DNA of 64,000 nucleotides from Xestospongia bergquistia. Lineage: Eukaryota > Porifera > Demospongiae > Haplosclerida > Petrosiidae. Below the pieces are notes generated by a model, which did no database searches, was not told the DNA's origin, and was given only the letters and a program-made list of their open reading frames with translations. Below are positions 16,420 through 64,000 of the stretch, one piece after another; position 1 is the first letter of the stretch; every line of letters begins with the position of its first letter. Made by a program: the position numbers and the translations under genes. The stretch is taken from assembly GCA_963965975.1 (NCBI GenBank), contig OZ014423.1, forward strand, positions 1,178,001 to 1,242,000. The letters run 5' to 3'.

Positions 16420-17202
16420 TTACTGAGCAACTTGTAAAAAAACTCTTGTCACTAATTGTTTGGTGACAGGAGGGAACTTCATTTCAAATGTATATGTAGT
16501 AGCATTATTGACTTGATATTGCATTTGTTGACAAGCACTCAGTGTTGGTTGCGGAATTATTCCTCTGAAATTCTCAAGTGTAGGTCTTTTCCATCCTCTG
16601 CAAATATCATTACACTTGTGGTTGAGAAAGAACATGGCCATTCCTTCTATACCCATATCAGTTACTCCATAGGACCCACTTACAGATAACAATGCAGGAT
16701 CAGTAAGATGGTAGCCATTATGGTCACGTACTCCTTGTAGATCAGCCACCATTTCTTGGCCTTTAGTGTACAACCAACTCCAGTGCATGAAGGCTGGTAC
16801 AGTGATGTTGACAGACTTGGCATCTGGTGATATATATCCATAGTTGTTACACCATTTAGTATAGTTTCCTTGAATGTAATCTTCAACAACTACATATTCA
16901 TTCAATTTAGGATATCCATATGGATTTGGTTGGTGAGTAACTTTAAGTACCACAGCATTTGTAAAAGAAATCGGATATGATGGACTGACAGACCTATTGA
17001 ATTGCCTGGCAAGTACACCTGCACGTTCATATATTTTGATCGTAGTATCCCAATGAGTTGATTCCCACGCATAGCCATCTTTCATTTCTTTTACAACACA
17101 TTGTTGTCCTCGTTTCTCTGGAGGAGCAGTCCATACTCCTTTGTAAGCTCTTCTGAAACGTCCTTCAGCAAAATGTTTGGATTCAAAAGTGGTTGACGTC
17201 AT
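16420..17202 (-). CDS. Alpha-kinase (MHCK/EF2K family), intronless, 260 aa (K1)
   Basis: The whole protein is an atypical alpha-kinase domain. A Gly-rich start FAEGRFRRAYKGVW (residues 11-24) precedes the ATP-binding lysine in CVVKE (K38). VVVEDYIQGNYTKW forms the hinge region, and HWSW...EMVADLQGV and LTDPALLS supply the catalytic and metal-binding aspartates. GVTDMGIEGMAMFFLNHKC followed by NDIC gives the zinc-binding His and Cys residues. Alpha-kinases phosphorylate Ser/Thr, often in helical substrates; examples are EF2 kinase, TRPM6/7 and ALPK1. The ATG at 17202 is preferred over upstream TTG; a TATA-like box lies 31-39 bp above it. No intron, signal peptide or other domain is visible. 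It lies 380 bp downstream of helicase A on the same strand. A near-identical paralogue is K2 at 60077-60856. Substrate and activator are unknown. Confidence 0.88.
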   Translation of the reverse strand: MTSTTFESKHFAEGRFRRAYKGVWTAPPEKRGQQCVVKEMKDGYAWESTHWDTTIKIYERAGVLARQFNRSVSPSYPISFTNAVVLKVTHQPNPYGYPKLNEYVVVEDYIQGNYTKWCNNYGYISPDAKSVNITVPAFMHWSWLYTKGQEMVADLQGVRDHNGYHLTDPALLSVSGSYGVTDMGIEGMAMFFLNHKCNDICRGWKRPTLENFRGIIPQPTLSACQQMQYQVNNATTYTFEMKFPPVTKQLVTRVFLQVAQ

Positions 17203-17232
17203 CTTTGATGATGAAGTGGCCAGCAAAAGAGT

Positions 17233-17241
17233 CTTTATATA
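17233..17241 (-). promoter_or_regulatory. TATA-like box for alpha-kinase K1
   Basis: On the minus strand TATATAAAG lies 31-39 bp upstream of the ATG at 17202. Kinase K2 has TATAAAT at a similar distance, which supports these kinases being separate transcription units rather than a last exon of the helicase. Confidence 0.5.
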
Positions 17242-17580
17242 TTTTCAATTTTGCAGTGTCACTATTAGGGAAATACTATGGGCTTTTCCCTTTCACTATA
17301 CATAATAACCACAAGTGTTATTATGTACTAGACTACACATATATAACAGTATGTTTATACAATGACAATGTATTAGTATTGAACAAGATTGATAAAATAT
17401 GTAGTAATGACATCAGCAAATGTAATGATATAATTATGTCTATTCATATATTATATTGCCGATATCAGTGTTATTGTCAGAATATAGGCACAAGTCTGAC
17501 ATTTAAATACAAAGTGTGTTATATGCTCCAATACACAAAGTTTTATCATTGTATATATTACAAGTACATGTTAATTATTG

Positions 17581-20500
17581 TCACTTGGTGGCCGACTTCT
17601 TTGAAGCTAAATAAGAAGATATAGTCATTATATACTGTAATATGTTATTATCTCAAGTATTATACCTGATTGTTTAACTATGTCAGCAAATGTTCGTTCT
17701 TGTCTTGAAGTCCATACTGACTCCTTAACTGGAGGTTCATCAGACATACCATGAGGTTGTGGCCATACAGAAGATATTGAGTCATATGTGAAACTATGTT
17801 TAGGTTGGCTGCTTTTTACTTTCTTCTTTCTCTTTGATTTGACAGTTGAAGAAGAGCTGATAAGAGTTTCTTCCTCATCTTTAGTTTTCATATAACTTTG
17901 AGTCTGTTGCTTGTCTTTTGAATGTCTTTGCTGTGGAGAATCAACCTGAGTGCTTTCTGGTACTGTTACTACCTCACTTGGAGAAATTAACATTTCGGGA
18001 AATGGCATTGGTTTCCTTACAGAAAATGGTGCAGCTGATATACCTGAAGCTTTATGAACAGAAAAAGCTAACGGAGATGATTTACTGGTATTGCTGGTTG
18101 ATGTGGTATCTAGTGGCTTTGGTTTCTGGATTGTTGATTGTGTTGGTTTACTTAAATCAGAAGCTAGTTGCCGAGGAGTAGGCAATAAACCTGACTTGCC
18201 TGAAATGGTTTTTGAAGATGATGGAATTGATTTGTTAAAAACTGATTGCTCAGAAGATAGTTGTCCCATAGATGCTTGTGGAAAGGCTATACTATCTGAT
18301 GGCGTTTGTTTTGTAGTACCTGATTTCTTTGGAACCATCAACTCCATCTTTCCATCTGCTGGAAGCTTTTGTTGACCTGATGTTCTCTTGGCTGATGGAT
18401 ACGAGTACGAGGTCTGTAAGGGTGGACATGTTGCTACATGCGATGTTGCAGCAGTGGTCTGTGATCTTTGAGGAGGAAATTGTGGTTGTGATACAATAGA
18501 TGCCTTCACTGTGTTACTTATTCCTACTTGCACTCTCAGCATTTCTTTTAATTGATGAAGACGAGGTTGTAAATTTGGAGGGAAAAACACTGCATTCTTC
18601 TCCAGACAAAGTTTTATATACTCTCTCCAACAACCTACAGCATAACCCATTACTTTTTCTGTTCTCAATAGTATAAATGGATTTCCCACGGCTATGACAA
18701 GTTGTCTTGAACGACTAATAGCAGTGTTAAAAATATTAGGATCTACAAGTGTCTTGGTTGGGTTACTGCTCTCTCCATTGTCTTCTAAAGGCTCATATGT
18801 GCTAAGTACTATTGCCTGGAACTCGTGACCTATATATAGAGAAATGGAGTGATTGATAGTGTCTTCATATTTGTTACCTTGAATAGCATATGATGGCAAT
18901 AAAGTGACATGGCGAAAAATTGAATCCTTTAATCTTTTTCGAATGATGTTTAGCTGAAAATAGCAATACATATAAAATAATAATAATATCCAAACAATAC
19001 ATGATTCACTTACCTGTGTTCTAAATGAAGACATAATACATACATCTCTTAGAGTAAAATCTTTCCAGCTATTGGGCCATTTACCAGTGCTAAAGAATTT
19101 CTTTACTTGGCTTACTACAGCATCTGCTTCAATATGCATTGAATGCAATGGATCAAGAATACTGGGATCCTTGGTCACATCAGAACAATAGAAAATACAC
19201 GGGCAATAGTTTGCTTCGGCATGTCCTTTGGATGGGGGGAGACCAGACTGAATTTGATATTTATAGACCACATTAGATAAAAGTGTTGTAATTGCAGGAT
19301 GACAACGATAATTGATGTCTAATTGTACAAGAGGGAACAGTACACTAGATTCAATTTCATAATATCTTTTCTCAAGACGTTCTAATAATGACATTTTTAA
19401 TCCATTCTCCCTTGCCATTTCACCAAGAACAACAACTGAAGGGCCAACCTAACATAAAGAAAGATAAAATTAAATATAACTCCATTTTGTAGGCTTACCT
19501 GTTTGCTATCACCAGCTATGACAATTTTTGTCTTTGAAGTACCCAAACATAAAGCACCAATAGCTTCAGGCTCTCGGACCTGTGCCACTTCATCAAGGAG
19601 GATGTGAGTGAAGTGAAATTTATAAGACCCAATGGCATCAGCAACATGTAACGAAGTTGTGTAAGTTGTAATAATGACAAGAACACGATCACTGACATAA
19701 TGACCATGTCTGACATCTTCACGAAATCCTTTTACACTTCTGTGGATGATATTTGAAGTTCTATAACTATCCTTTCGCATCAACTTAATAATTTTAATTG
19801 TTCGTATTCCCTCAAAAGCTGGGCCGAGATAGTTGATGTAAGTCTCAACTGTGTTGTTGTGATGTGCGCAGATCAAGATACGAGTACGATATTGCTGAGA
19901 GAGTCCACCTGTTACAAATTCATATGTTGCACGAGCTAACACTCTAGTCTTGCCAGAACCAAATGGACCAGATACAATGATTGGAATATTAGGAGGACTT
20001 TGAAGAATAACTTCTAATGCATTAAGTTGTCCATACTCATCAACAGACAATGCCTTCAAAAAACATTTAGAATTAACTCTGCGTGCAGCTGTCTGGAGAG
20101 GTTTTGAAGTGTCTCCTATAGTTGGAAAAAGTTTGTTAATCATGGTCTGTGGAGTATTTATAACAGCCTTGTGTAGAGTGTCAAAATAAGAGTGCTTGAC
20201 TTCAAATTGTACTGACACTTGACAGGATTGTCCTTCTGTTATACCAAATTTTCTCTTGAGATGCTTAATAGATAAGGAAGGTAAAGCTATCAAAAATTTT
20301 TTGTTCACATTCCCAAAATTAGCTGGAAGAATTTCTGCTCGACAAATATCTTCATTTTTTTCTCTGTCAATAATAAACATTGCTTCACTAGCCTGTGTTG
20401 CATATTGTATCTGATCATGAGACATCCCATAAATGTAACCAACATAACATTGCCTTTCTTCTATCATTTCATATCCTTCCAGAAATAATCTATAATCGCC

Positions 20501-23500
20501 ATCACATCTATATTAATAAAGTGACTGTATATTAGTTAAGTATAATAACTTACTTTTCTGAAAGGAGGCAAATGTGTTCAGACTCTTCAAAACACAACAG
20601 GTAATAGAATTTATCTCTGTAGTTAGAAGATGTCAACTTTACTGCAATGTTGTCCTCTAATAATTCTGTATTTTTCAATCGCTCTGTAAACTTGATTTTC
20701 CACATTTCTCTTTCCTTGTAGTTTGTTGTCTGTTCTGCTTTTTTCATATTACCAGGAGACTGTTGCAATTGTATGGAACTCTTCTTAAGTAATGTTTCAT
20801 TCTTGAGACCTTAACAAAATTAAGTCAATAAAATATCAAACATCTTTAATATAATCTCACTTGAAGACTGTTTTGTTACTTTTTCCTCATTTAGTGACTT
20901 TTTAGAAGAAGAAGAAGCTACAGTTTAGAATAAGTCAGAGCTCAAAATGATAATAAATACACACCTGTAAATTTAGTAATGTCTGGCCACTCATCTTGTT
21001 GTTCACATGAACTTTCTGGTTGATCTGTAGTTAGAAATAAAATTATAATTAGATATGTCACAAAATTTACCTGTGATAACTGAAGAGGTTGAATGACCAA
21101 CCCAATCATCAAGTGGTGTGCTTTGAGAAATATCTTGTGAGGTAACAGCAGTTACTAAGTTTTGAGACGTAGCATGAAGCAAAGGAATAACAGGTGGTGT
21201 CTTCCTTTGATCCTCAAGATGGATAGGATATTTAATTTGATGTGAAATCTCAGGAGGTTGTGACGGCAAACCTTGAGACATAAAATGAGGCATCATTCCT
21301 GCAACAATATGATTAAAAGATATCGATAATCATTATTTCATTTATACCTGGTTTTTGATAAACTTGAGGTGCAGATCCTTGCATTGTAGGTACATCCATT
21401 TTTACTATAAGCAACAACAAATTAAATACATGGTGGCTTTTGTAATAGACCTACCACATGACTCCATTGAAGGTAAAAATGGATTAGATGAACTTGATGA
21501 AGGCATACTACTACTCATATGTATTCCTATTAGAAAAATGTAGCCATTTAGAAATCTGTTTACATTAATCAACTAGCACCTGGAAAATAGAAGTATGGAT
21601 TGGGTGGCAGTGAGGGATAGGGCGGGAAAATGTAGGGAGACACTCCACTATGTGGATATAGATTAGCATTATAAGGTGGAAATGAACTAGCTGAGGAAAC
21701 AAATGGTGGAGATTGGTGAGCAAGTTGGAATGGCTGAAGAAACGGTGTTGGTATATCAATCATTCTGGAAAAGCCTAATGTTGCACAGAAAAAAAAATTA
21801 TTAATAAGAATACAAAGTAAATATTATTCTGGAAGAAATTGTACGTATTTGGAAGAGGTTACTTCTCCAGGCTGTTGGTAATGATTCTTTCTTAAGCTTA
21901 AGGTTTCATTTTAGTTTTGTTTAATGTTTAATATTACAGTCAATACATGTACTGAAATTTCTACCAGAAGAATAAACACAACAATTACCCTCTGATTGAG
22001 TTTCTTTGACATCATCTCCAACTTTTTGCTTCTTCTTTTTCTTTCCTTTAATTAGAGAATTTAGAAATTTATAATTTTACTCTCACAACATATTTTTGTA
22101 CCTCCTGAGTGTTTTTTGTTTGGATGGCTTTCTCTATCAGACTCAAAAGATCCCACTGATGATGTGTCAAAAGATTCAACACCTGAATCCTCAGAATCAC
22201 TCAGAGCTATGGAAACTAGTCAAATATTTAATGAATACATCCTAAAATAAGCTACCTTTATTTGTACAGTCGCTATTAAAGCTCTTGAAAGATATTCCAA
22301 TTATTTTCTCCTCTCTTATAGAAGACAGTGGTAATGAAGCCATCATTTCAGGATCAAATTGAACACACTCTGGAACCAAATATTCCAGTTTGTCATCATC
22401 AATTTTAACTTCTTTTAAAAGAAGAGCATAATGTTCTATACTTAATACAGTCGCAACTCTGCCGTGTATTTGTAAAAGGTCTCCTGCAGATAGGCCATGC
22501 AAGCTATTTGGACACAATCTTAGCTCCAATAAATCAGACTGATAACTATCAACATTGTAGAAAGGCTGAATTAATGGAGGCATCTCTACTATTTTGAGTG
22601 CTTCGAAAGAAAGGATATACTCTTTAAGATGTGCTTTTCCTTTGTAGTTGTCAAATTTAATGAACAACTTTTCAAGAAGCTTAAAGTTATAGAAAGACCA
22701 AAATTGATTAAGAAACAGGAAAAGATCTGGTAAAGTAAAAACCTTTTCAATTTGACTAATAGCTTCATGTAGTAGAGGTTTATCTTCTGTTATTCTCAAT
22801 CGTTGAGAATTTAATTGTAAAAGAAATTCTTTCACTCTCTGTAGCTCTATATTATTATTCTTAATACACTTATAAAGTTCAACAATGAGAGAAGCAAACA
22901 TTGTAAAAACATCGGTAAGCCTTGTACTTTCAACTGTGACAACAGATTCTAATTCATCATTTGTAACTTCCTATATTAATATATAAAATTGTAAGTTGTA
23001 TTTTAACTAGTATACTTAGTGAAGTAGGAATTAAGTAGTATACTTAGTCTTACTTTCTTTGGAACAGTTTGTATTTGGTGATCAAACTGTATAGTTTTGA
23101 TGAATAAATCTTTGTAACTCAGTGTAGACAGTGCATTAAGAACTCTGTCAGATAATGGAAATATTTTTTGTAATAAAGCAAGTGGAGCAGCAAATACAAA
23201 TTGAATACATCCCTTTGTATATGAACAAAACTCAAAAGCATCAATAGCAATGCCAAGACTTGATGAAACATGGCTTCTCAAGTGGAGAAGGACATCGGCT
23301 TTCAAAGAATCCTTGAGAGAGTCATCTGTATTGGGAACATCAATTTTTAGGACAAAATGACCTGACCTATGAGGATCATCACTGATGTTACAAGAATCAG
23401 ATGGAACTTCAAACAGAGACCTCCGTAAAAATGGTGTCAGCTGATTATTAATATACTCCAGGTACTCGGTCTCACAAACTTTGAACTTCTTTGTAATTGA

Positions 23501-24416
23501 GTGAAGGAGAGGATAGTTAAACCAGCTAATGTAATTTTCTGTTAATAGAAACATTATTACTGTTTCTACATTAGAGGCACTGCTAAGATCAGACTGGAGC
23601 TTGATGCGTTTCTCTTCAGACAAATAAAAAAACTTCTGCTGTGCCATGAGGAAAATTTTAAGCTCATGAATATCGAAGTCATTTAACTTCTTTAGAGACC
23701 AATAAACACTTGTAGTAAGTGATGCAAACTCCTCAGATATGTCACGAGCATCTTCTGTCAATCGTGAGAGAAGCTTTAACTTTTCTCGACGCCTCATCTT
23801 CTTGATGTTTAGTAGAGGGAAATGTGCATGTTCCCATGGATTAGGGCATCCATTTTGAAGAAAACTGCTTAGAGAACATTGTCCACACCCACAGAGAAAT
23901 CTCATATCTTCATCTTTCAGAGTATCACTGCTGTCAGAGTCTACTCCTTCATCTTGTCTTTTCTTGTCTGAGCAATGAAAAGTACTTGAGAATACAACTT
24001 ATAAACAATTCACTCACCTTCTTCCATTAGTCTTAAGCCCTCATCAATAAGGTCTACTCTGTTGCTGGAATCAAGTGCTTCAAACAGCCTAAGATAAGTG
24101 GCTTCATCTCCACATTTTTTCAACCAATTTTCTAATAAACCCACTTTCTTTGCAGCTTCATCGTTGTTATAATTAGCTTCTATTTCTTTCATCTCTGCTT
24201 CAGAAATGTCAAGATATACTCTAGTAGTTCTCCATTCTGATAAATCTCTTGCTATTTTTATAGCATGAGAATGAGTACATTTCTGTTGTAAATCTTCTAA
24301 AGTGATAGAGTTCTTCTTCAGACGATGGTTGTGTTTCTGCAGGAAACCTATTTAGAAGTATATACATACTATCTAAATTCTAAACTATATATGAGGCAAA
24401 ACGTACTTTCAGCCAT
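17581..24416 (-). CDS. Helicase A: Death domain + CGCG module + UPF1/MOV10/HELZ-like SF1 helicase, about 1,900 aa
   Basis: Tiny exon 1 (MAES, ATG 24416) splices to a death domain (24018-24347: DLSEWRTTRVYLDIS ... LLENWLKKCGDEATYLRLF ... DLIDEGLRLM). Next come an exon opening FLCGCGQCSLSSFLQNGCPN (23054-23967) and a related module (22256-22970). Small Ser/Pro-rich linker exons (20.8-22.2 kb, e.g. PPYPSLPPNPYFYFPG) lead to a beta-barrel-like lead-in (NYRDKFYYLLCFEESEH). The helicase core has GPFGSGKT (Walker A), LLDEVAQ (motif II), IAGDSKQ (III), NYRCHP (IV), GHEFQAIVLSTYE (V) and NTAISRSRQLVIAVGNP (VI). A long Ser/Thr/Lys tail follows. A last mini-exon (17581-17606) adds ASKKSATK and TGA. All helicase motifs look competent. 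The SF1B relatives act on RNA or RNP; the death domain implies a signalling role (inference). Confidence 0.8.
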
Positions 24417-24641: not shown

Positions 24642-25140
24642 CTACTTGTAAAACAGCTTTAACATCTGGTGATATATATCCATACTTGTTACACCATTTA
24701 ATATGGTTTCCTTTAATGTGATCTTCATATATCCATACTTGTTACACCATTTAATATGGTTTCCTTTAATGTGATCTTCAACAACTACAACTACACACTC
24801 AGGAAGTTCATATGAATTTGCTTGCTTAGTGACTTTATGTACCACATTATTTGTAAAAGAAATGGGATATGATGGAACAACAGACCTGTTAAATTCCCTA
24901 GCAAGTACTCCATATATTCTGATTGTAGTATCCAAATCAGTTGATCCCCATACAGAGCTGTCTCTCACTTCTTTTACAACACATTGCTGTCCTTGTATCT
25001 CTGGAGGAGGAGTCCATTCTTCTTTGTAAGCTTTTCTGATAATGTCCTTCAACAAACAACTCTGATTCAGAAGTGGTTTATGATATAATTGATGAAAACA
25101 ATGACCAAACAAAATTGAAAGGATACTTTTAGACGTTAGC
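24642..25140 (-). pseudogene. Alpha-kinase relic 1
   Basis: The minus strand reads RKAYKEEWTPPPEIQGQQC, VVKEVRDSS and VVVVEDHIKGNHIKWCNKYG, homologous to the N-lobe of K1. The N-terminus is altered and the C-lobe, with the catalytic aspartates and zinc cluster, is missing. A 53-bp direct duplication (24675-24727 and 24728-24780) shifts the frame. It sits between helicase A and helicase B, the position a kinase would hold in an A-type unit. Confidence 0.85.
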
Positions 25141-25895: not shown

Positions 25896-28800
25896 TTACA
25901 GACTAATTAACACATCTCTCATCTTCATTTTTTCATGTTGAGAGTAGTCTTTAGATGGAAAATAAAATGTTTTATTCGCTAAACAATATTTGATATATGC
26001 TCTCCAACATTTCTTGTCAAATCCCATCTCTTCTTCTGTCTTTAGCAACTTTAGTGGATCACCTACAGCAACTACAAGAGCTCTAGATCGACAAACAGCT
26101 GTATTGAAAACGTGAGGGTTACAAAGACTTTTAGTTTCATCATGAGGCTTTCCATTTTCATCTAATGACTCGTAAGTACTCAAAAACACTGCTTGATATT
26201 CAGATCCTAGATAATAATGCAATTAAAAGAATTTTTAATTTAATTTAATAACCTTGAATAACATAGGAAGGAACATATACAGCACATTGTCTATCCCAAT
26301 CACTCATAGAAAAATCTCTGATTTTATTTAGCTAAAATTAATAGCAGAGTAAAGATAATTTAGAATGTAATGTAGACTTGGTCTTACCTGATTTCGACTG
26401 GCAGAAACTACACATACACTACCTTCCATAGGAATATGTATGTCTTTCCAATCTTTAGGCCACTTTGTAAAATAGTATTTTAGTTGATAGACCACTGCTT
26501 CTGCATCCTTCACAGAGAGGCCAGTATCACTATTTTGTTTTGGTGTTATGTCAGCTTTCTTGGCAAGTGTAGAGCAATCAGAACAGTAAAAAACACAGGG
26601 AAAATGAGCTTTTGGGTGTGGGACTACTTTTTTAGGTGATACAATAACACCTTTGTCATAATAAAGCAAATCAAAGAGAAGCTTTGTAATATCAGGATGG
26701 CATCGATAATTTCTGTAAAGCTCTGCTTTAAAGTGCACCAATGGACCTTTAATTTCTCCATATGTTTTCCAAAGACGCTCCAATAGAGATATATTCAGTC
26801 CACCTTTTCTGGCATCAGTTGCTTGTACAAGATCAGAAGGTCCAACCTATCAATGTAAGAATTTAAATTCTCAAAAAATACACTATTTAGATCTATACCT
26901 GTTGAATATCTCCAGCCATAATTATCTTCGTATCTTTATTTGCTAGGCAAAGTGGAGCGATTGCTTCTGGTTCACGAACTTGTGCTGCTTCATCCAGAAT
27001 GATGTGAGTGAAGTAGAATTTTTCTTTAAATCGATCGACAAGCTTTAGTGAAGTCATGTAAGTTGAAACAAAAAGCACACATTTTGTTTGAATTAAAGTG
27101 TCATTGATTTCAAAGTTGACAAATTCCATGAAATGGATATTAGAGCTTGAGATTCTATTACCATACATTTTTTTTTCTTTTGATTTTCTCATTATTCTTA
27201 CGATTTGAATGTTGTCGTTGTTTTCAAATGCAGGTATTATGTACTTTTCCATATAGTCATTGGCATAATTTGAATGATGGCTGCAAATAAGGATTCTTGT
27301 CACCTTTTCAGAGGACAAACCATATTGAACAAGTTCGTATGCTGCTCTAGCTAGTAGTGTAGTTTTTCCAGTACCAAATGAACCAGATATAATGATAGGA
27401 AAATCAGCAGGATATACTAACATGTGCTGTAGTAATGCAATTTTGTCATCACCATCAATTGATAATTTATTTGGTGTGCATTCCCTAGAGATATTACATG
27501 TAAATTTGGAGTCTTTCTGGAGTAACACTTGTACTGCTTCTGGAGTGGGCAAAATCTTTCGAATCATAAAGTCAGGAATTTGTGCAACAGCATCAGTTAG
27601 AGAAGTGTAGTAGCCTATCTTTGCATCAAAAATAAATTTGATGTTTGTAAATACAATTCCCTCTCCATTCAGACTGTTCTTGTAAGGATACTTCATCAAT
27701 TTCTCCTTGTCTGATGTTGACAATTGTAAGTAGAGTACAGGTTTTGTGTTTCTAAAATTTTGAGAGGCTATCTTCACTTTACATATGTTACTATCATTGA
27801 TAGCATAATGAAGATGAACATATTCACTTTCTTGTAGTGCAAGTTGAAATTTATGATCATCAATGTGAATATATGCAACAAAATCTAAATCTGACTTTGG
27901 TTGAAACCATTTAGGAATCAAATGCAAGACTGTCAGATCATATATACCATTGCACCTGTATAATACAAAAAGCTGAAATTGTAATATGAACTCAAATTAG
28001 GATATTACTTTGATGCTAGTATAACATTTTTGTGTGTTCTCTCTGCATCAAGAGCCTTTCTAAAGGTGTCTTTATAATTACCAATGGTAAGCCCTGCATA
28101 GAATTACCAATTCAGTTATGTACTGAGATTTAAAGCTTACCAATGAAACCTTTTTGTTTTATTTCTTCATGCAAATATCCTGTATCGACCATTGATGTTG
28201 GAATAGATAAAGAGGGTGGTGTGAGCTTAGTAGATGATAATGCACTGGAGTCTTGAAGAGGCAACGATAAAACATGTGAATTTAATTTTTTAATACTTTC
28301 TATTTTTATTCTCAGTGTTTCTTTTAGTTTTTGGAGTTGTTGTTGTGAATTGGGAGCAGACATTAACTGAATTGTGTTTTTCTCCAGACAAAGTTTTATA
28401 TATTCCTTCCAACACCTCTCATCATAACCCATTGCTTCTTCTGTGTTCAATAGTCTATTGGGATTTCCCACTGCAATGACAAGCTGTTTAGAATGACTGA
28501 TAACAGTGTTAAAGATTATAGGATCCACAAGTGTTTTTGTAGGGTTTGTACTCTTTCCATTGTCATCTAAGGGTTCATATGTGCTAACCAGAACTACATC
28601 AAACTCATGACCTTAATTAAATGAAATATAGCATCAATGAAACAGGAAGTGTATTCTATTACCTTGAATGGCATATGATGGCAGTAAAGTTACTTTATTA
28701 AAATTCGAGTCCTTCAATTTTTCTCTAATATAATTCAGCTACAGTATATACAATATTGAATCAAATAGAATTACAAATTTGTGATTTACCTGAGCTATAA

Positions 28801-32086: not shown

Positions 32087-32147
<61 letters not shown>

Positions 32148-45452: not shown

Positions 45453-45535
45453 TAGTGCTTACTGCTTAGATAGTGCTATATTTCAAACAGTATTATAATT
45501 ATGGTACATTATTGCATCTTACAAACATCAACTGT

Positions 45536-48640: not shown

Positions 48641-48879
48641 CACAACATACCTTTGACCATTTATAAAATGTGTTGAAGGGACTGCCCAATTAACAAATAG
48701 TTATTTATTATTTAGCCAGTATTACGCCTATTAGGTGGGGGTTAAAGGAGTGTATAAGCTCAGAATTGTGTGTGCATACTTGTAAATGATTATACCATAT
48801 ATGGAAAATTATATAAACAATAGCCACAAGGGTGTGATCTCTAATAATGCATTTTTAATTTGATGGTATTATGACAATT

Positions 48880-49330
48880 GTGCTACTTGGAGACCAGCCA
48901 CCATATCTTGACATCTGCTGTTATATAGTCATAGTTTTAATATGGTTTCCTTTAATGTAATCTTCAACAACTACACTACATGCTCAGGTTGTCCATGTTG
49001 ATTTGGTTGTACCACAGAATCTTTAAAAGAAAAGGGATGTGATGGACAGACCTGTTAAATTTCCTAGTAAGCACTCCAGTTCACTTATATAATCTGATTG
49101 TAGTATACCAACCTGTTAATTCCAATACACAGCTGTCTTTCACTTCTTTTACAACATATTTTTGACCTCATTTCTCTGGAGAAGCAGTCCATACTTCTTT
49201 GTTAGTTCTTCTGATGCATCCTTCTTTGTTAGTTCTTCTGATGCATCCTTCAGCAAACAATTATGATTCAAAAGTGGTTGATGACAACATCATTGATGAA
49301 GACAGTGATCAATGAAAAATGAAAGAAGAC
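48880..49330 (-). pseudogene. Alpha-kinase relic 2
   Basis: The sequence aligns with relic 1 and K1 at DNA level: the ATCTTCAACAACTACA hinge region, CATTTCTTTTACAACA near the Lys motif, and a start region with TATAAGAGTC upstream. It has many frameshifts, a duplicated 27-bp block (about 49195-49250) and no C-lobe. Confidence 0.8.
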
Positions 49331-50899: not shown

Positions 50900-53800
50900 T
50901 TACAGATTAATTAGCACATCTCTCATCTTCATTTTTTCATGTTGAGAGTAGTAGTCTTTAGATGGAAAATAAAATGTTCTATTCCCTAAACAATATTTGA
51001 TATATGCTCTCCAACATTTTTTGCCAAATTCCATCACTTCTTCTGTCTTTAACAACTTTAGTGGATCACCTACAGCAACTACGAGAGGTCTAAATCGACA
51101 AACAGCTGTATTGAAGACATGAGGGTTACAAAGACTTTTAGTTGAATCATGAGGCATTCCATTTTCATCTAATGACTCGTAAGTACTCAAAAACACTGCT
51201 TGATATTCAGATCCTAGATAATAATGCAATTAAAAGAATTTTTAATTTAATTTAATAACCTTGAATAACATAGGAAGGAATATATACAGCACATTGTCTA
51301 TCCCAATCACTCTTAGAAAGATCTGTGATTTTATTTAGCTAAAATTAATAGCAGAGTAAAGATAATTTAGAATGTAATGTAGACTTGGTCTTACCTGATT
51401 TCGACTGGCAGAAACTACACATACACTACCTTTTATAGGAATATGCATGTCTCTCCAAACTTCAGGCCACTTTGGAAAATAGAATTTTAGTTGATAATCC
51501 ACTGCTTCTACATCCTTCATAGAGAGCTCAATATCACTATTTTGTTTTGGTGTTATGTCAGCTGCCTTGGCAAGTGTAGAGCAATCAGAACAGTGAAAAA
51601 CACACAGAAAATGAGCTTTTGGGTGTGTGACTACATTTCTAGGTGATACAATAACACCTTTGTCATGATAAAGCAAATCAAAGAGAAGCTTTGTAATATC
51701 AGGATGACATCGATAATTTCTGTAAAGCTCTGCTTTAAAGTGCAGCAATGGACCTTTAATTTCTTCATATGGCATATTTGGAGTGCTTTGAAGAATAGAT
51801 TCTAATGCTTTAAGCTGACTATAATCATCAATGGACAGTATCTCCAATTGATCATCACATTTAGAATTAACTCTGTGTGTGCCTGTTGGCAAGGGTTGTG
51901 TAGTGTCTCCTTGCTTCGGGAAGAGTTTTTTTATCATTGTCTCGAGAACTTTTACTATTGCTTTATGTAAAGTGTCGAAATAAGAGTGCTTGACTTCAAA
52001 TTGTACAGACACTTGATAGGATTCTCTTTCTGTTATACCAAATTTTCTCTTGAGATACTCAATAGATGAGGAAGGTATGATTATCATAAATTCCTCATTA
52101 ACATTTCCAAAATTATCTGGAAAAATTTGTGCTGGACAATTGTCTTCATTTTTTCCTTTGTCAAAAATGAATATTCCCTCACTAGCTTGTGTTGCATGCT
52201 GCATTTGATCTAGAGACATCCCATAAATGTAACCAACATTTTGTTCCTGTCCTTCTATTATTTCAGATCCTTTTAGGAATAACTGATACTCACCATCACA
52301 CCTATTGAAGATAAATAAACACAGTTTTACAATGAAAAATATATGATAACAACTCATATAAACATAATTAAGAATTAAGAACTAGTTTTTGCCTCACATA
52401 ATACAAAGAAGTGCATCAATAAGTTCTTGACTTCTTTGTATTGTTTGTATGTGTTAGTATATTTTTGTCATATATATCAATGCTTTGTTAATTGCATCAC
52501 TATCTTAAAATTGCAGTGAATACAGAAAGGTAATAACAGTTGTTATATGCAAAAATTAACAAACCATAAATACAGGAGTTATGGAAATTTAATATTCTTT
52601 GCAAGAGTAATAGAACAAAATGACTAATGGGGTAGCCATATTGGCTTATTATATAATTTGCAAAATGTGACTGATTTAAGTTATTTAGGCTCATTCATTG
52701 TAATCATATGCATTACAGCTTTTGTAAAGTAACTTACTTCTCCAAGAGAAGACTGATATGTTCTGATTCTTCAAAACATAGTAAGTTAAACATTTTGACT
52801 TTGTAGTTATGAGCTGTCAATTCCCCTTTAACGTTTGTTTCTTGCAAATCTGCATATTGTAATCTTGTTTTGAATTTGAATTTCCATTCTTCATTACTAC
52901 ATTCATATTCTATATAACATAATGTGAAATTGTTTTATCAATAAAATTGAAGCACATGTATATATAAGTGACCTGAATTGATTTTAAATTGAGTGGATAA
53001 ACTCATGGCTTCATGAACATGGTCAAGAGATGGTCTTGCATGAGGATGTGAAATGCTAACACCAGTTTGAGAAGGATTAGTATGATTAGTTGACTGAGGT
53101 ACAGCCTCTGTAACAAAATGTACTAAAGCTTATGATCAAACACTGAAAAATTACCATTTGATAAAGCTTTCTTGACAGTTCCAAATTTTGGCTTTTTACT
53201 TCTTTTTTCTATAAATGGGCTATGTGATATTTTACATAATCAGTCATGAATTACCTTCTTTTGATTCTCTCCTCAAATGACTTTCATTTTCAGATTCACG
53301 TAAAGTATCAACACCAGAATCAATGTCAGCAATTCTATGAACTAGATGCAAATTTAAATGTAATGAAACTAAAGTAGATTAGTGTAGTTACCTTTATCAA
53401 CATACTGTTCAAGAATGCCAGCACTACTAAAATTCTTTAAAGAAACTCCAATAACTTTCTCCTCTCCCAGAGAAGACAATAGCAATGAGCCCATCCTTTT
53501 AGCATCAAACTGAACACACACTGGGACCAAATATTCAAGTTTGTCTTCAACTATTTTAATTTCTTTTAAAAGAAGGGCATAATTTTCTATGCTTAATGCA
53601 GTGGCAACTCTGTGCTGAATATGCAAGAGCTCATCTGTTGATAAAGCCTGTAAGCTATTTGGTTGCATTCTTAACTCCAATAAATCAGAATAATAGCAGT
53701 CAACATTATAGAAAGGCTGTACAAGTGGTGGTACCTCGACTACTTTGAGTGCCTCCAAGAAACTTACATAACTTTGAAGTTTTGCTTTGCTATCAAATTC

Positions 53801-54119
53801 AATGAAAAACCTCTCAAGGAGCTTATAATTAAAGAATGACCAGAACTGGTTTAGAAACAGAAAAAGATCAGCTAATGTAGAAATAGCATCAATTTGGGTA
53901 ATTGCTTTGTGTAACAGAGGTTTGTCTTCAGATTTTTTCAATCGCTGACAATTTAAATGAAAAAGAAACTCTTTTATTTTTTGTAATTCTATTTCATTTT
54001 CCTTGATGTTCCTATAAAGCTCAACAATGAGAGAGGCAAACATTGTAAAAGCATCAGTGAGCTTTGTGCTAAGAGATGTACTAACAACACACTCCAAGTC
54101 TTCTTTTGCAATGTGCAAC

Positions 54120-54208
<89 letters not shown>

Positions 54209-54211
54209 TAT

Positions 54212-54245
<34 letters not shown>

Positions 54246-54294
54246 TGAGTGAGAGACAGAGAGACAGAGAGAGGGAGAGAGACAGAGAGAGAAT

Positions 54295-54327
<33 letters not shown>

Positions 54328-57300
54328 GGAAGAATAACTTACTTTTTTGGAACATTTTGCATTTTGTCAAACTGTACTGTTTTGATGCATAAACTTTTGT
54401 AGTTGAACATTGAAAGTGACTCCAGAACTCTGTCAGATAATGGAAAAAATTTTTGTAGTAAACAAAGTGGAGCAGCAAGTACAAACTCAATGCACCCCTT
54501 GTGGTAGGAGCAAAATTCAAATGCATCAATAGCTATTCCAAAACTATTTGCAACATGTTTTCTCAAAAGAAGAAGAACTTCAGCTTTGGGAGTGGCTTCT
54601 AGATCACGAACATCAAGTTTGAGAATGAAATGACCTGATCCCTGAGGATCATCACTGGCATTAAAAGAATCAGATGGAATTTCAAAGAGAGACCTTTGTA
54701 AGAATGGTGTCAGTATCTTGTCAATGTACTCTTGATACTCAGTCTCACAGACTTTAAACTGCTTAGTAATAGAGCCAAGAAGGTAATGATTGAACCAAGT
54801 TATGTAGTTTTCATTTAGCAGAAACATCATCACAGCTGATACTTCAGAAACATTACTATTAAAATGAGAATAGAGTTTTGCACATTTTTCTTCAGACATA
54901 TAAAAAAACTTTTGCTGCGTTAAAAGGAAAATCTTAAGCATATTAACATCAAAATCATGCAACTCCTTTAGAGAAGAATAAACACTTATAGTAAGTGATG
55001 AAAATGATTCACTGATGTCCCAAGCATCTTGTGTCAATCGTGAGAGGAGCTTGATCTTTTCTTGATGTCTCATTTCCTTGATATTGAGCAGAGGGAAATG
55101 TGCATGTTCCCATGGATTAGGACAACCATTTTCAAGAAAACTGTTTAAAGAACATCGTCCACATCCACAGAGAAACATCATGTCTTCATCACTTACATTT
55201 TCATTGTAGCCATAATCTGCTTCATCATTTTTTCTCACTTCTACACAATCTATAAGAACATAAAAGTTGTCACATTAGTCACACAAAAGTCTTTGTTGCA
55301 CAGTATCTATGGTAAAATTGTCAATTAGTGCAAGTACATAGTAAGTATACTTTAGACATATTACTGACACTTAAAACTGTATATAATAAAGTCAAGAAAT
55401 ATGGTATGCAGTTAGCAACAGTACTTATTTAGTAAAGATACTGCTCATGTTCATATAATTTAGCTTTCGTAGTAAACATACTCAGCAACACGTGTTTATA
55501 GTTTTGTGTGGTACATAGTATAAGCAGCGAGTAGAACGCATGCGCATTTAGGTATAATTATAATGCAAATACTAGTATTAGCATATGCGTTATAGTTAAA
55601 CATATTCACACAGCTTGACCTATAACCTAGACCTAGACCTTATACCGTAAACTCTAATTGTGCATGCCTAAACCTACATGTACATGCGTTTTGCTTAGAT
55701 GTTACTAACAGTGCGCCACAGTTATAACCTATGGCAGCAACAATGACTAAATCCTAAACAGTAAACTCTCCCTAAACCTAAATGCACATGCATAATGCTC
55801 TCTGCTTAAGATTCCTACTAATGGCACTTCATAGCTAATACAAAAGTAACTCATTTTTAAATCCGAAATGATATGCACATGCATCTTACACAAGAAGTAT
55901 TTGGAGCCCAGTTACCATTGCTATGTTTGCTTTATACATTTGAGTTAACAAATCACTGATTTTTGACTAAATTAATTAATTGTGAAGTATACTTTAAGCA
56001 TGCTATATATTAATTGCATGTACTAATTTTAACAAATTTATCGAGAACTGCTAAATTTTGAAAGTGCTAAAATTTTACTTTAGAAAAAATTAACTTAAAT
56101 GGCATTACTCAGGAAAATCACTTAAAATAATTTAAATTTAGTGGACACAGTAATAGTAGACAGTATGTTACTATCCCTTGTGAAACTGTATACATCAGAA
56201 ACAAGCGAGTAGTTGATAGAGATAATATGTCAACTGATATAAACAGTAAATAAAGCCATTGTCCCCACAATGCAAACTGTAGTTATTATTCAGCGCTAGC
56301 AAAACACCATGATATTGTGTAGTATCTATTATAATTATATTTGTTTTATTGGCACCAAAATGGTGCACCATAGCAGTGCACCTGTGTATATACCACTAAT
56401 TTTTTCAGCTACTGCAATATTGGGCACAATTGAGTCCTAGGATGTCCCTTCACTGTTACTGCACAAGCTTGTAAAGATAAACATGGGGAGGATAACTCTT
56501 TTTAAGAACTATATATAGTCTCTAGATTTTGAGACCTAGCAGCGCAAGACTATTGACCCTGGACAACGTCAACATTTTACAGTGAAGACCTGTGTAGATA
56601 GGACATAGGCTGCAAATTAATTATCCAACATATTGAAGCAGCACTAGTCTATCTAGAATTGTTACAAAAGCATTCATAAGCTCTTGTGTAAGGCTAGACA
56701 TTACCATTCGCGTAATTAATTTCTTGAAGTGCTTTTTCCACACAAATTGCTACTGTCGAAAATTACCTGTTATAACTCTGCTTTAATTTGCATGCAAACA
56801 CCTATACCTTTTTCCAATCGTAGATACTGCAAGCCCTCTTCAATGAGATCTATTCTTTCAGATTGATCAAGTGCTTCAAAAAGCTTGAGAAAAGTAGCTT
56901 TGTTTCCATATGCCGTGAGCCATCCTTCTATAAAATGCACCCTCTTTGCAGCCTCATCATTTTTTGGATCAAAATCAATCTTTTTCATGACATCTCCAGA
57001 AATTCCCAAAAATGCTCGAGCAATTCTCCATTCTGTTAGGTTTTTAGCTATTCTCACTGCAATGAACTGGGTACACTTCTGCTTTAAATCATCCAAGGTG
57101 ATAGAATATTTATGCAAACGGTCTTCGTGCTTTTTACAAAAATCTACAAATTTAACAGAACTGTCTATTAATTTAGATTTGCATAGATATGTAATACACT
57201 AGTCTTTCTATAAAGACTAGTGTATTATCTATTAGAATGAGAATAATAATTATATCATAAAAAATATTTGACTAACCACTTAGGCTCCTTTGTTCCTGTT

Positions 57301-57391: not shown

Positions 57392-57766
57392 CTGTGCATT
57401 AGAAAAGCATTCTTATAACTAGAAGTAACTGGCATAATCTGCTAAAGTTTTTCTTTAAGAACATTTCATTTTGCAGAATCATTGCTACAAATAATGCATC
57501 CACCTGTATAGCCATATATTGGTAAAGATAATCACTCAAATTTAACAGTGATATAAAAATGCATTCACATTAAATACATTATTGCTAGCACAAAAATCAC
57601 TTTTCTTTTTAAATTACAAGCAACCATGTAAACAGACCTCATTGAGATGAAATAATCAGGGTATTGTTAAACTGAAATCTTGTGCAACAATATTAGGCAT
57701 CCACAATATGCAATGATATAGAGTTGTGCAGTTGTTATTATTAATTATAACAGTTATCATAATTAC

Positions 57767-59077
57767 CATTTTTTCTTTCTTTTCCAGAATAACTATGTCA
57801 CCAATCTGTAACAAGATTACTCCAGCATTATGAAGGTATGGTAGTCTTGTCTTTGCCATTTTTACTAGATTTTCCATTAGTACTTTGGGAGCACACATAC
57901 TAACAAAGATGCAACCAGTACCCACATTACAGATATGGATGTATTGTGAATATTCAAGAAACAAATTTTTGACAACTCTCTCAAATTCTTTAACTGTAAA
58001 ATTATCATTTGAAGACCACTTCAATTTCAAAGCAATGGTACACTCTGGTGTAGGATTACGAATCAATAGTTCAGCTTCATTCTCTAGCTCTTTTGCAAAT
58101 GTAGCACTCAACAACTTCTTACGATAATTCTGTTCATCAGTCTGATACTGTTGAATAGCTATGAGTGCATCAGAAAGTTTAAAATGATCAACAATGTGTA
58201 TAAGGACCTCTATGTTGACTGGTGAACAAAGTTTACGAATAGCAATAAAGACACTTGACAGGTCTTTTGCATTTTGAAGTTCTTCCTCTTCAAATGGATA
58301 AGACAATATAAGTAGCTGTTTGAGGCAATCAATATTAATACCAGCCAATTCAACAATTTTTTGAACATTGAGCACAAGAGAACCTAGCTTTCCTTGCATT
58401 ATAAACAAATCGTTGTATGCACTTTCACCAACAGTAATAGACTCTACACAAACAAATAATATGAGACTAATTATATTAAGACTATTGTATAATTTAACCC
58501 ACTTTGTACATTGTGTTGATATGTAAATTGAGAAGTGGTTGTCATAAGTAACTCTGCAGATTCACTTTGTGGCTGTTCTTGATCCATGATGGTTGTTATG
58601 GAAGATTCTATAGGAGTATAATTACTTTAAAGATAAATAATAGAAAATATTATATTAATATAGTAATATTAAATTATAGTATTAATTGTATTTATATCAT
58701 AGTATACCATAATTTCTTTTCATTTTCTCAGCAACAGCACTAAGTAATGGAGGATGACATTCTAACACTGATAGAATTTTCATAAACTTAGTATGATCTA
58801 AAGCAACCATTAATTCCCCCAGCAGACGATGAACTTTTATTTCACGACTGCTACTCTCAGAAGTAGCTTTTATCAGAGTCCATTCTGAAATGAGCTCAGC
58901 TGAAAATAGATCTGCAGCTAATGTGACTGGACTGGTAATTGAACGAGTTAAGTCCCTATAGGACTTCTGAAACACTTGGTATTCCTTAGAAGGAGGTATA
59001 AAGCAGTCAGTATCCATTGGGATGGACAGACACGCCCTACAGTTTATTAGTCTATTGACACACCCACAGGCAATCAT
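57767..59077 (-). CDS. CARD-like + CGC-type module unit; probable 5' part of gene C
   Basis: ATG 59077 opens MIACGCVNRLINCRACLSIP, then a helical death-fold region resembling a CARD (SPVTLAADLFSAELISEWTL; REIKVHRLLGELMVALDH; FMKILSVLECHPPLLSAVAE), ending at a donor at 58708. A linker exon (58.45-58.60 kb) follows. The exon down to 57767 encodes SPVNIEVLIHIVDHFKLSDA and IALKLKW..., with GCIFVSMCAPKVL, homologous to the GCIEFVLAAPLCLL region of the helicase genes. The donor at 57767 is phase 0 and the exon at 57391-57279 starts phase 0 and ends phase 1. The death-domain exon of gene C needs phase 1, so all junctions fit one transcript. If it is not spliced there, reading through gives a stop at 57656. 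Confidence 0.6.
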
Positions 59078-59164
59078 GACTACCAGAGGGTCATACCAGT
59101 TATATAGTATGATTTATGGAACCCTTAAGAGTCTTAAAGTCAGTGCTACAACTAACTTGACCAT

Positions 59165-59970: not shown

Positions 59971-60076
59971 TTATGATTATAAAGTATTAATTAAAATTCT
60001 AATACAATATTAATATCAATTATGTTAAACCAGAAAATGATATAATTATACATAGCAATTTAATTGTTCAAAAAAA

Positions 60077-60856
60077 CTACTGAGCAACTTGCAGAAAAAC
60101 ATGTGTCACTAATTGTTTGGTGACAGGAGGGAACTTCATTTCAAATGTATATGTAGTAGCATTATTGACTTGATATTGCATTTGTTGACAAGCACTCAGT
60201 GTTGGTTGTGGTATTATTCCTCTGAAATTCTCAAGTCTAGGTCTTTTCCATCCTCTGCAAATATCATTGCACTCATGGTTGAGAAAGAACATGGCCATTC
60301 CTTCTATTCCCATATCAGTTACTCCATAGGACCCACTTATAGATAACAAAGCAGGATCAGTAAGATGGTAACCATTATGGTCACGTACTCCTTGTAGATC
60401 AGCGACCATTTCTTGGCCTTTAGTGTACAACCAACTCCAGTGCATGAAGGCTGATACAGTGATGTTAACAGACTTGGCATCTGGTGATATATATCCATAG
60501 TTGTTACACCATTTAGTATAGTTTCCTTCGATGTAATCTTCAACAACTACATACTCATTCAATTTAGGGTGTCCATGTGGATTTGGTTGTTGAGTAACTA
60601 TACCTAGCTTTGCATCTGTAAAACAAATTGGATATGACGGATGTTTAGACTTGTTAAACTCCCCAGCAAGTATACCAGCTCTTTTATACATATCAATTGT
60701 AGTATCCCAACCAGTTGGTTTCCATACGTAAGTATCTTTCAACTCTTTTACAACACATCGTCTTCCTTGCATTTCTGGAGGAGCAGTCCATACTCCTTTG
60801 TATGCTCTTCGGAAACGTCCTTCAGCAAAGGATTTGGATTCGAAATTAAATGACAT
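60077..60856 (-). CDS. Alpha-kinase (MHCK/EF2K family), intronless, 259 aa (K2)
   Basis: A close paralogue of K1. It has FESKSFAEGRFRRAYKGVW, the lysine motif CVVKE, VVVEDYIEGNYTKW, EMVADLQGV, LTDPALLS, GVTDMGIEGMAMFFLNHEC and NDIC. The C-lobe is almost identical to K1, whereas residues about 40-95 differ more (e.g. TYVWKPTGWDTTIDMYKRAG), a pattern that could reflect gene conversion or selection on the N-lobe. All catalytic and zinc-site residues are present. The ATG at 60856 is chosen by alignment to K1; upstream in-frame codons start with TTG. It lies about 390 bp downstream of helicase D on the same strand. Confidence 0.88.
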   Translation of the reverse strand: MSFNFESKSFAEGRFRRAYKGVWTAPPEMQGRRCVVKELKDTYVWKPTGWDTTIDMYKRAGILAGEFNKSKHPSYPICFTDAKLGIVTQQPNPHGHPKLNEYVVVEDYIEGNYTKWCNNYGYISPDAKSVNITVSAFMHWSWLYTKGQEMVADLQGVRDHNGYHLTDPALLSISGSYGVTDMGIEGMAMFFLNHECNDICRGWKRPRLENFRGIIPQPTLSACQQMQYQVNNATTYTFEMKFPPVTKQLVTHVFLQVAQ

Positions 60857-60895
60857 ATTTGGTTGATACAATAAAGTGGCTGAAATTGTAGGCAA

Positions 60896-60902
60896 ATTTA
60901 TA
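60896..60902 (-). promoter_or_regulatory. TATA-like box for alpha-kinase K2
   Basis: TATAAAT on the minus strand, 40-46 bp upstream of the ATG at 60856. Its position is comparable with that of the K1 box. Confidence 0.45.
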
Positions 60903-61244
60903 CTAGTTTCATTTTGCAGTGTAACTATCAGGGAACTACCATGGGTATTCCCCTTTCACTATACATAATAACCACAAGTGTTATTATGAAAGTAGTACTA
61001 GACTACACATATATAACAGTATGTTTACACAATGACAATGTAATAGCCTTGAATGGCATTGATAAAATATGTAGTAATGACATCAGCAAATGTAATGATA
61101 TAATTATGTCTATTCATATATTATATTGCCGATATCAGTGTTATTGTCAGAATATAGGCACAAATCTGACATTTAAATACAAAATGTGTTATATGCTCCA
61201 ATACACAAAGTTTTATCATTGTGTATATTACAAGTACATGTTAA

Positions 61245-64000
61245 TTATTGTCGCTTGGTGGCCAACTTCTTTGAAGCTAAATAAGAAGATACAGTCATTA
61301 TATTGTAACATATTATTAACTCAAGTATTATACCTGATTGTTTAACTATGTCAGCAAATGTTCGTTCTTGTCTTGAAGTCCATACTGACTCCTTAACTGG
61401 AGGTTCATCAGACATACCACGAGGTTGTGGCCATACAGAAGATATTGAGTCATATGTGAAACTATGTTTAGGTTGGCTGCTTTTTCCTTTCTTCTTTCTC
61501 TTTGATTTGACAGTTGAAAAAGAGCTGATAAGAGTTTCTTCCTCATCTTTAGTTTTCATATAACTTTGAGTCTGTTGCTTGTCTTTGGAATGTCTTTGCT
61601 GTGGAGAATCAACCTGAGTGCTTTCTGGTACTGTTACTACCTCACTTGGAGAAATTAACATTTCGGGAAATGGCATTGGTTTCCTTACAGAAAATGGTGC
61701 AGCTGATATACCTGAAGCTTTATGAACAGAAAAACCTAACAGAGGTGATTTACTGGTATTGCTGGTTAATGTGGTATCTAGTGGGTTTGGTTTATAGATT
61801 GTCGATTGTGTGGGTTTACTTAAATCAGAAGCTAGTTGCCGAGGGGTAGGCAATAAACCTGACTTGCCTGAAATGGTTTTTGAAGATGATGGAATTAATT
61901 TGTTGAAAACTGATTGCTCAGAAGATAGTTGTCCCATAGATGTTTGTGGAAAGGCTATACTATCTGATGGTGTTTGTTTTGTAGTACCTGATTTCTTTGG
62001 AACCATCAACTCCATCTTTCCGTCTGCTGGAAGCTTTTGTTGACCCGACGTTCTCTTGGCTGATGGATACGAGTACGAGGTCTGTAAGGGTGGACATGTT
62101 GCTACATGTGATGTTGCAGCAGTGGTCTGTGATCTTTGAGGAGGAAATCGTGGTTGTGATACAATAGATGGTTTCATTGTGCTACTTATTCCTACTTGCA
62201 CTCTCAGCATTTCTTTTAATTGATGAAGACGAGGTTGTAAATTTGGAGGGAAAAACACTGTATTCTTCTCCAGACAAAGTTTTATATACTCTCTCCAACA
62301 ACCTCCAGCATAACCCATTACTTTTTCTGTTCTCAATAGTATAAATGGATTTCCCACGGCTATGACAAGTTGTCTTGAACGACTAATAGCAGTGTTAAAA
62401 ATATTAGGATCTACAAGTGTCTTGGTTGGGTTACTGCTCTCTCCATTGTCTTCTAAAGGCTCATATGTACTAAGTACTATTGCCTGGAACTCGTGACCTA
62501 TATATAGAGAATGGAGTGATCGATAGTCTCTTCATAATTGTTACCTTGAATAGCATATGATGGCAATAAAGTGACATGGCGAAAAATTGAATCCTTTAAT
62601 CTTTTTCGAATGATGTTTAGCTGAAATAGTAATACATATAAAATAATAATAATATCCAAACAATGAATGATTCACTTACCTGTGTTCTAAATGAAGACAT
62701 AATACATACATCTCTTAGAGTAAAATCTTTCCAGCTATTAGGCCATTTACCAGTGCTAAAGAATTTCTTTACTTGGCTTACTACAGCATCTGCTTCAATA
62801 TCCATTGAATGCAATGGGTCAAGAATACTGGGATCCTTGGTCACATCAGAACAATAGAAAATACACGGGTAATAGTTTGCTTCGGCATGTCCTTTGGAAG
62901 GGGGGAGACCAGACTGAATTTGATATTTATAGACCACATTAGATAAAAGTGTTGTAATTGCAGGATGACAACGATAATTGATGTCCAATTGTACAAGAGG
63001 GAACAGTATACTAGATTCAATTTCATAATATCTTTTCTCAAGGCGTTCCAATAATGACATTTTTAATCCATTCTCTCTTGCCACTTCACCAAGAACAACA
63101 ACTGAAGGGCCAACCTAACATAAAGAAAGATAAAATTAAATATAACTCCATTTGTAGGCTTACCTGTTTGCTATCACCAGCTATGACAATTTTTGTCTTT
63201 GAAGTACCCAGACATAAAGCACCAATAGCTTCAGGCTCTCGGACCTGTGCCACTTCATCAAGGAGAATGTGAGTGAAATGAAATTTATAAGACCCAATGG
63301 CATCAGCAACATGTAACGAAGTTGTGTAAGTTGTAATAATGACAAGAACACGATCACTGACATAATGACCATGTCTGACATCTTCACGAAATCCTTTTAC
63401 ACTTCTGTGGATGATATTTGAAGTTCTATAACTATCCTTTCGCATCAACTTAATAATTTTAATTGTTCGTATTCCCTCAAAAGCTGGGCCGAGATAGTTG
63501 ATGTAAGTCTCAACTGTGTTGTTGTGATGTGCGCAGATCAAGATGCGAGTACGATATTGCTGAGAGAGTCCACCTGTTACAAATTCATATGTTGCACGAG
63601 CTAACACTCTAGTCTTGCCAGAACCAAATGGACCAGATACAATGATTGGAAGATTAGGAGGACTTTGAAGAATAACTTCTAATGCATTAAGTTGTCCATA
63701 CTCATCAACAGACAATGCCTTCAAAAAACATTTAGAATTAACTCTGCATGCAGCTGTCTGGAGAGGTTTTGAAGTGTCTCCTATAGTTGGAAAGAGTTTG
63801 TTAATCATGGTCTGTGGAGTATTTATAACAGCCTTGTGTAAAGTGTCAAAATAAGAGTGTTTGACTTCAAATTGTACTGACACTTGACAGGATTGTCCTT
63901 CTGTTATACCAAATTTTCTCTTGAGATGCTTAATAGATGAGGAAGGTAAAGCTATCAAAAATTTTTTGTTCACATTCCCAAAATTAGCTGGAAGAATTTC
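61245..64000 (-). CDS. Helicase D: near-duplicate of helicase A (3' part only; 5' part beyond window)
   Basis: Exons mirror helicase A. 63.16 kb to the edge covers the pre-Walker region, GPFGSGKTRV, LLDEVAQ and IAGDSKQ. 62680-63115 has INYRCHPAITTLL. A short exon at about 62540-62620 reads RHVTLLPSYAIQG. 61338-62500 carries GHEFQAIVLSTYE and the SRSR-type motif VI, then the Ser/Thr/Lys tail. The terminal mini-exon (61245-61276) gives ASKKLATKRQ and TAA, two codons longer than A. All visible helicase motifs are intact. Protein differences from A are few, and even the introns and the spacer to the kinase are nearly identical, so duplication is recent or conversion is ongoing. The death domain and modules are expected to lie to the right of the window. 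Confidence 0.82.

Follow-up and report, generated by a model that had tools for sequence, protein, structure and literature searches.

The window analysed here, 64,000 nucleotides from the sponge Xestospongia bergquistia (contig OZ014423.1, called C13 below; C13:1178001-1242000), carries a run of genes joining a Death domain to a superfamily 1 (SF1) helicase, several with an alpha-kinase gene or its remains at the 3' side. The locus raises the question of whether helicase and kinase form a dedicated pair or are neighbours that were copied together. We find it probable that this is a birth-and-death array of immune-type Death/HELZ2-like helicase genes, with the alpha-kinase as a separate gene co-duplicated with the unit. 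As predicted from sequence, the product of a full gene would contain a Death domain, one or two modules in which helices are combined with an RRM-like (probably TRADD-N) domain, and helicase modules of HELZ2-like, UPF1-group SF1 type, likewise one or two.

Exon-level searches spanned the window and the next 40 kb, and all gene models were built by splice-site scoring and copy-to-copy comparison, being known here from genomic sequence alone. The searches placed genes A, C+B, D (a pseudogene), E, F, G, H and J on the minus strand and gene I on the plus strand; A to E lie inside the window, F spans its edge and the array extends beyond it. The C13 copies are tandem duplicates. The A and F units (16315-20335 and 59976-64000) are 94% identical, with 92-100% identity per 200-base window from the Death exon to the end of the helicase, making A and F near copies; C and E share stretches at 98% identity (29730-32069 against 51770-54106), and E shares one stretch with B at 93% identity. 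The duplicating cluster of Death-domain SF1 helicase genes proposed in a first-pass annotation was borne out. Its count of at least four helicase loci plus a pseudogene was right as to the array and pseudogene D, but C and B read as one gene and E is a chimera without motifs I-III. The features of the window, all on the minus strand, are:

16420..17202, minus strand: alpha-kinase of unit A, one intact exon that begins with an ATG of its own at 17202 (PF02816, E 4.9e-48 for the open reading frame (ORF) 16420-17244)
17581..20809, minus strand: gene A linker and first helicase module (Hel1), AAA_11 and AAA_12, with Walker A and DEVAQ motifs; splice-site models
21070..21823, minus strand: gene A proline-rich exons, low-confidence models; ORFs also present in F, splice sites ambiguous
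22256..23967, minus strand: gene A d2 exon at 23054-23967, with a CxCxxC motif, helices and an RRM-like domain, and d3 exon at 22256-22970; splice-site models
24018..24351, minus strand: gene A Death-domain exon, mapped as far as 24351 at its 5' side (PF00531, E 5.5e-9 for 24013-24351)
24652..25040, minus strand: alpha-kinase relic 3' of gene C+B, truncated (E 1.4e-5)
25899..28093, minus strand: gene C+B second helicase module (Hel2) with linker exon 28009-28093, AAA_11 and weak AAA_12; open splice join from C
28141..30855, minus strand: gene C+B Hel1 and its linker (AAA_11, E 1.2e-17)
31386..35102, minus strand: gene C+B N-terminal exons, Death 34773-35102 (under the Pfam cut-off), d2 32194-33114, d3 31386-32075; Pfam scan and exon-level searches
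45818..48548, minus strand: pseudogene D, a decayed A-like copy (fragments, frame changes, stops)
48867..49278, minus strand: alpha-kinase relic 3' of E; exon-level and genome searches
50903..57147, minus strand: chimera E, Death 56821-57147 (under the Pfam cut-off), d2 54342-55247, d3 53423-54112, helicase 51338-52336 and 50903-51229; in-frame fusion
57659..59113, minus strand: helical exon 58700-59113 (31 genome matches) and d1 exon 57659-58561 (at least 132), the closest matches lying on other contigs
60077..60856, minus strand: alpha-kinase of unit F, one intact exon, matched in the genome search at 60257-60826 (1.7e-43)
61299..64000, minus strand: gene F Hel1 helicase, 3' part, 94% identical to A

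Gene A runs from its Death exon through d2, d3, the proline-rich exons, the linker and four helicase exons to a short last exon with a stop ending at 17581; the linker and Hel1 exons were modelled from splice sites at 20554-20809, 19499-20507, 19014-19448, 18878-18953, 17666-18829 and 17581-17606 (stop). A spliceable 85-base linker exon (28009-28093) lies between helicase C (28141-30263) and helicase B (25899-27955), and since this join is open, with the intron phase as in gene A, C and B are read as one gene with two tandem helicases. In A and F, Hel1 stands alone ahead of the kinase, with no second helicase module seen there. The exons of gene F continue for about 4 kb beyond the window, up to a Death exon. 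In E, a C-like Hel1 N-terminal part is joined to a B-like Hel2 C-terminal part in one open frame, and this in-frame junction removes ATPase motifs I-III.

The helicase exons in the window match AAA_11 and AAA_12 (over the Pfam cut-offs for gene A), and a profile search with the helicase core gave UPF1 as its best PDB match (3.8e-17), confirming the UPF1-group SF1 identity suggested at first pass; Pfam matched the Death, AAA_11/AAA_12 and alpha-kinase domains to be searched for there. A one-exon helicase query gave 37 matches across the 146 Mb genome (21 contigs), merged by hand into 33 places, the counts being lower bounds (C13 10, C3 12, C8 10, C14 1). Walker A and DExAQ motifs were present in all 16 helicase modules placed in a tree, where C13 stood apart from C3/C8 at 99/99 and the C13 Hel2 modules B, H and J clustered at 100/100. 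At one C8 locus (L019), the ORF that comes after two helicase modules matches both OB_HELZ2 (7.9e-8) and RNB (5.6e-42); RNB was seen at this one C8 locus, a count with no genome-wide RNB search behind it. OB_HELZ2, searched genome-wide, was found at eight places (five on C8, three on C3) and gave no match on C13. One of the C3 matches lies about 1 kb past a helicase match, itself downstream of a Death/d2 ORF and another helicase, and in three C3 ORFs Death is over the Pfam cut-off, with a d2-like stretch after it in every case. We call the family HELZ2-like because OB_HELZ2 comes after helicase pairs on both C3 and C8, RNB is present at one of the C8 loci, and on C3 Death/RRM-like exons precede the helicases; the window genes are named HELZ2-like relatives, rather than HELZ2, because the OB_HELZ2 match is missing on C13.

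The proposal of death-fold domains ahead of the helicase held for Death, which was over the Pfam cut-off in gene A and the three C3 ORFs and below it in the other two window Death exons (E 0.002 and 0.0037); the CARD-like label given to exon 58700-59113 was not supported. This helical exon had no Pfam match up to E 1, its profile had no PDB match better than E 0.99, and its 18 relatives gave scattered weak matches to unrelated families only (best E 0.0046). A d1-type match was nearby in 16 of the 20 places fetched for it (the window's own included), and by position 0 of its 30 other places lay within 100 kb of a helicase match. The helical and d1 exons adjoin gene E and are candidate exons of it only.

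In this genome the d1 exon is one of a very large family (at least 132 matches; of 458 first-look candidates, 131 were scored) that is homologous to the d2 family (hhalign probability 93.5, E 2e-7), although the match was weak when the window d2 and d3 rows alone were used (probability 31.8). A model of the alpha/beta part of d1 gave a beta-alpha-beta-beta-alpha-beta, RRM-like order at a predicted local distance difference test score (pLDDT) of only 63.7, with Gly52-Cys53 in the beta2-beta3 turn (Gly-Ser in some relatives), and structure searches with it returned common ferredoxin-like folds. According to the main text of Kaur et al. 2021 (PMC8195603), TRADD-N has an RRM-like fold and a small-residue-Ser (sometimes Cys) motif in that same turn. 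The modelled domain is probably TRADD-N, a wording kept at this strength because support from hidden Markov models (HMMs) was weak.

Both intact ORFs and two relics annotated as alpha-kinases in the window are indeed such. Kinase profiles matched the PDB entries 4kuj (4.6e-22), 7shq of eEF2K (1e-13) and 8zd3 of ALPK1 (7.6e-10). The A and F kinases retain the alpha-kinase catalytic and zinc motifs, whose residues presumably play those roles. The kinase starts from its own ATG at 17202, 378 bases past the stop that ends helicase A, so it is, on these models, a separate single-exon gene. That the kinase exon is instead the C-terminal exon of a fused helicase protein we consider highly improbable: the two lie on the same strand and candidate in-frame splices exist, but gene A closes with its short last exon and stop ahead of the kinase, the same last intron, terminal exon and stop can be read by eye in F and G, and the start of the unit A kinase, with its own ATG, resembles the starts of unlinked C5 kinases.

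Linkage was then assessed across the genome. The kinase F query gave 23 matches, merged by hand into 19 places (C13 5, C5 11, C2 3). A kinase was found within 5 kb at 7 of the 33 helicase places, all on C13 (C+B counted as two, D as one), and a helicase within 5 kb at 5 of the 19 kinase places, again all on C13. No kinase lay within 20 kb, start to start, of any of the 23 helicase places found outside C13 (12 on C3, 10 on C8, 1 on C14), and the 14 remaining kinase places were on C5 or C2, contigs without any match in the helicase search. Within C5:7084001-7160000 the alpha-kinases are tandem and stand-alone, several with stops, and adjoin large ORFs of about 900 residues that look class C receptor-like by eye; at C2:7630001-7650000, alpha-kinase ORFs lie downstream of a domain resembling von Willebrand A, with Ig/FN3-like exons around them (by eye). 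The expectation of a kinase at the 3' side of each helicase was correct for A, C+B, E and F, all on the same strand, but pseudogene D has none in the window; further out a kinase relic lies 3' of G and none lies 3' of H, I or J, giving 5 of 9 C13 genes. Only the A and F kinases are intact (2/5), the other three being truncated, frameshifted or both.

Comparison of the kinases of A and F gave 37 synonymous changes over 163 sites and 51 nonsynonymous over 614 (ratio 0.33, Fisher p 2e-6), showing that the intact pair is under purifying selection; we take the intact kinase as probably functional and copied together with the rest of the unit. Divergence was mostly in the first half, with synonymous divergence (dS) of 0.45-0.67 in windows up to codon 110, 0.07-0.21 in windows from codon 80 on and 0-0.08 in the neighbouring helicase exons. 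This mosaic of the two intact kinases (16423-17202 and 60080-60856), old in the first half and recent in the second, would most simply reflect gene conversion. In the helicases, exons helN and helC1 of A and F together differed by 15 synonymous changes over 316 sites and 7 nonsynonymous over 1127 (p 4e-6), and helN of A and C gave a nonsynonymous to synonymous ratio (dN/dS) of 0.26.

One alternative is that the kinase is a true functional partner, activated by or phosphorylating the helicase or its Death complex, with co-duplication maintaining the pair. Strand and order are identical in five copies, both intact kinases are constrained and keep their alpha-kinase motifs, and the kinase first halves are far more diverged (dS 0.45-0.67) than the adjoining helicase exons (dS at most 0.08), from which it follows that two distinct kinases have persisted. 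However, three of the five C13 kinases are decayed, one of them next to C+B with its two open helicase modules, and no pairing was seen among the 23 helicase and 14 kinase places found off C13; an independent kinase job would likewise give constraint. We regard this partnership, which the first-pass annotation had put forward, as improbable: the observed gene is separate, unlinked at the places found outside C13 and decayed at three of five on it, and a dedicated helicase/kinase pair is unsupported. The fuller scheme, in which an animal RNA-sensing system arose independently from an SF1 (HELZ2-like) helicase fused to Death and signals through the alpha-kinase duplicated with it, as an SF1/kinase analogue of the RIG-I pathway, we judge less probable still. 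In a different account the helicase genes serve to degrade RNA or restrict transposons, as human HELZ2 does with LINE-1, and Death is a scaffold rather than a cell-death signal. The HELZ2-type OB in related loci and the RNB at one fit this, as does the account in the main text of PMC9839780 that human HELZ2 reduces LINE-1 RNA and that its helicase motifs matter; yet OB_HELZ2 has no match on C13, and in their main text the authors of PMC8195603 take 357 Amphimedon Death-like/TRADD-N proteins as immune or apoptotic. This account seems unlikely, if the least so of the alternatives named here.

Several points weigh against an immune-type, HELZ2-like array with a passenger kinase. The constraint on the kinase exceeds the need of a mere passenger. 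The last helicase exon, mostly tail, gave a higher ratio (0.44) between A and F, and C and E showed no detectable constraint over few changes (p 0.44). The HELZ2 link of the C13 genes leans on the C3/C8 relatives; that Death, helicases and RNB there would belong to one gene is read from order and spacing, and neither Death nor d2 was matched in the two C8 loci read. PF20694 (TRADD-like_N) matched 1 of 9 d1 rows (E 0.021), none of the window d1, d2 and d3 exons or the three scanned C3 d2 ORFs, and nothing in a genome search. CCCH-like spacing could be read by eye in ORFs on C3/C8 and ahead of H, and the three such ORFs scanned gave no zinc-finger match by HMM. A non-immune role is possible as well, since HELZ2 also carries an annotation as nuclear co-activator.

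On the favoured birth-and-death reading, we infer the RNA target, the signalling output and the function as follows. The helicase would engage RNA (foreign, viral or transposon), ATP-dependent clamping would expose the Death/TRADD-N unit, and Death-Death contacts would recruit a signalling or cell-death complex. In the C8 (probably also C3) relatives, the added RNB exonuclease could destroy bound RNA; the C13 copies, without an OB_HELZ2 match, seem to retain no more than the part for binding and signalling. The alpha-kinase would have settled once beside an ancestral copy and multiplied with the unit, being intact at two places and decayed at three. If true, proteins related to HELZ2, which in vertebrates is an interferon-stimulated effector, would connect straight to death-domain signalling, a single protein family thereby both handling RNA and signalling cell death, and the nuclease-bearing copies (C8, probably C3) and seemingly nuclease-free C13 copies within one genome would make the two roles separable for testing.

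Around the array, a 37-base tandem repeat (26.6 copies, 97% match, low GC, strong GC skew) lies just beyond its last gene at 13954-14938, and direct repeats of about 800 bases at 35805-37825 have related copies around 43.9-44.4 kb. A 1221-residue open frame running off the window edge (2-3664) has a beta-helix match slightly below the cut-off and several membrane segments by eye; 4572-4859 is an exon resembling glycerol-3-phosphate acyltransferase (E 0.00012, slightly below cut-off), and at 40465-40704 there is a DEAD-like fragment, short and below cut-off (E 0.024), perhaps of mobile-element origin.

Among known systems, eEF2K, TRPM7 and ALPK1 share the alpha-kinase domain, whereas the window kinase is a stand-alone ORF of about 260 residues with no other domain seen. 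RIG-I-like receptors (RLRs) likewise join a death-fold domain to an RNA helicase, and the window genes would work by analogy with them; membership of that family (SF2 helicase with CARDs) is ruled out by the SF1 core and the Death domain in place of CARD. HELZ2, interferon-induced in vertebrates and named there as helicase with zinc finger 2, has the paired UPF1-group SF1 helicase modules (here in C+B, by splice model) and shares with related loci OB_HELZ2 and, at one of them, RNB; the present family differs in its N-terminal Death and RRM-like domains, and C13 in having no OB_HELZ2 match. At the C8 locus both helicases precede RNB, whereas in human HELZ2, which restricts LINE-1, the main text of PMC9839780 describes two helicases flanking it. 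In the sponge Dysidea avara, two HELZ2 genes were lower in the symbiont treatment at 5 h (PMC11229196), and the main text of PMC12909245 gives 128 Death-domain genes and lacks the term alpha-kinase. Another likeness is to the expanded TRADD-N/Death-like proteins of Amphimedon (357 there), cnidarians and brachiopods in the main text of PMC8195603, which combine a Death-like and an RRM-like domain, a small residue-Ser/Cys turn, a variable C-terminus and lineage expansion; the words HELZ and alpha-kinase are missing from that main text, and TRADD-N here is not HMM-secured. For the helicase/alpha-kinase pairing, of which the first-pass annotation knew no described system, our literature search likewise found no paper, but the same main text reports TRADD-N fused to Mov10, DDX60 and RLR-like helicases in cnidarians and brachiopods.

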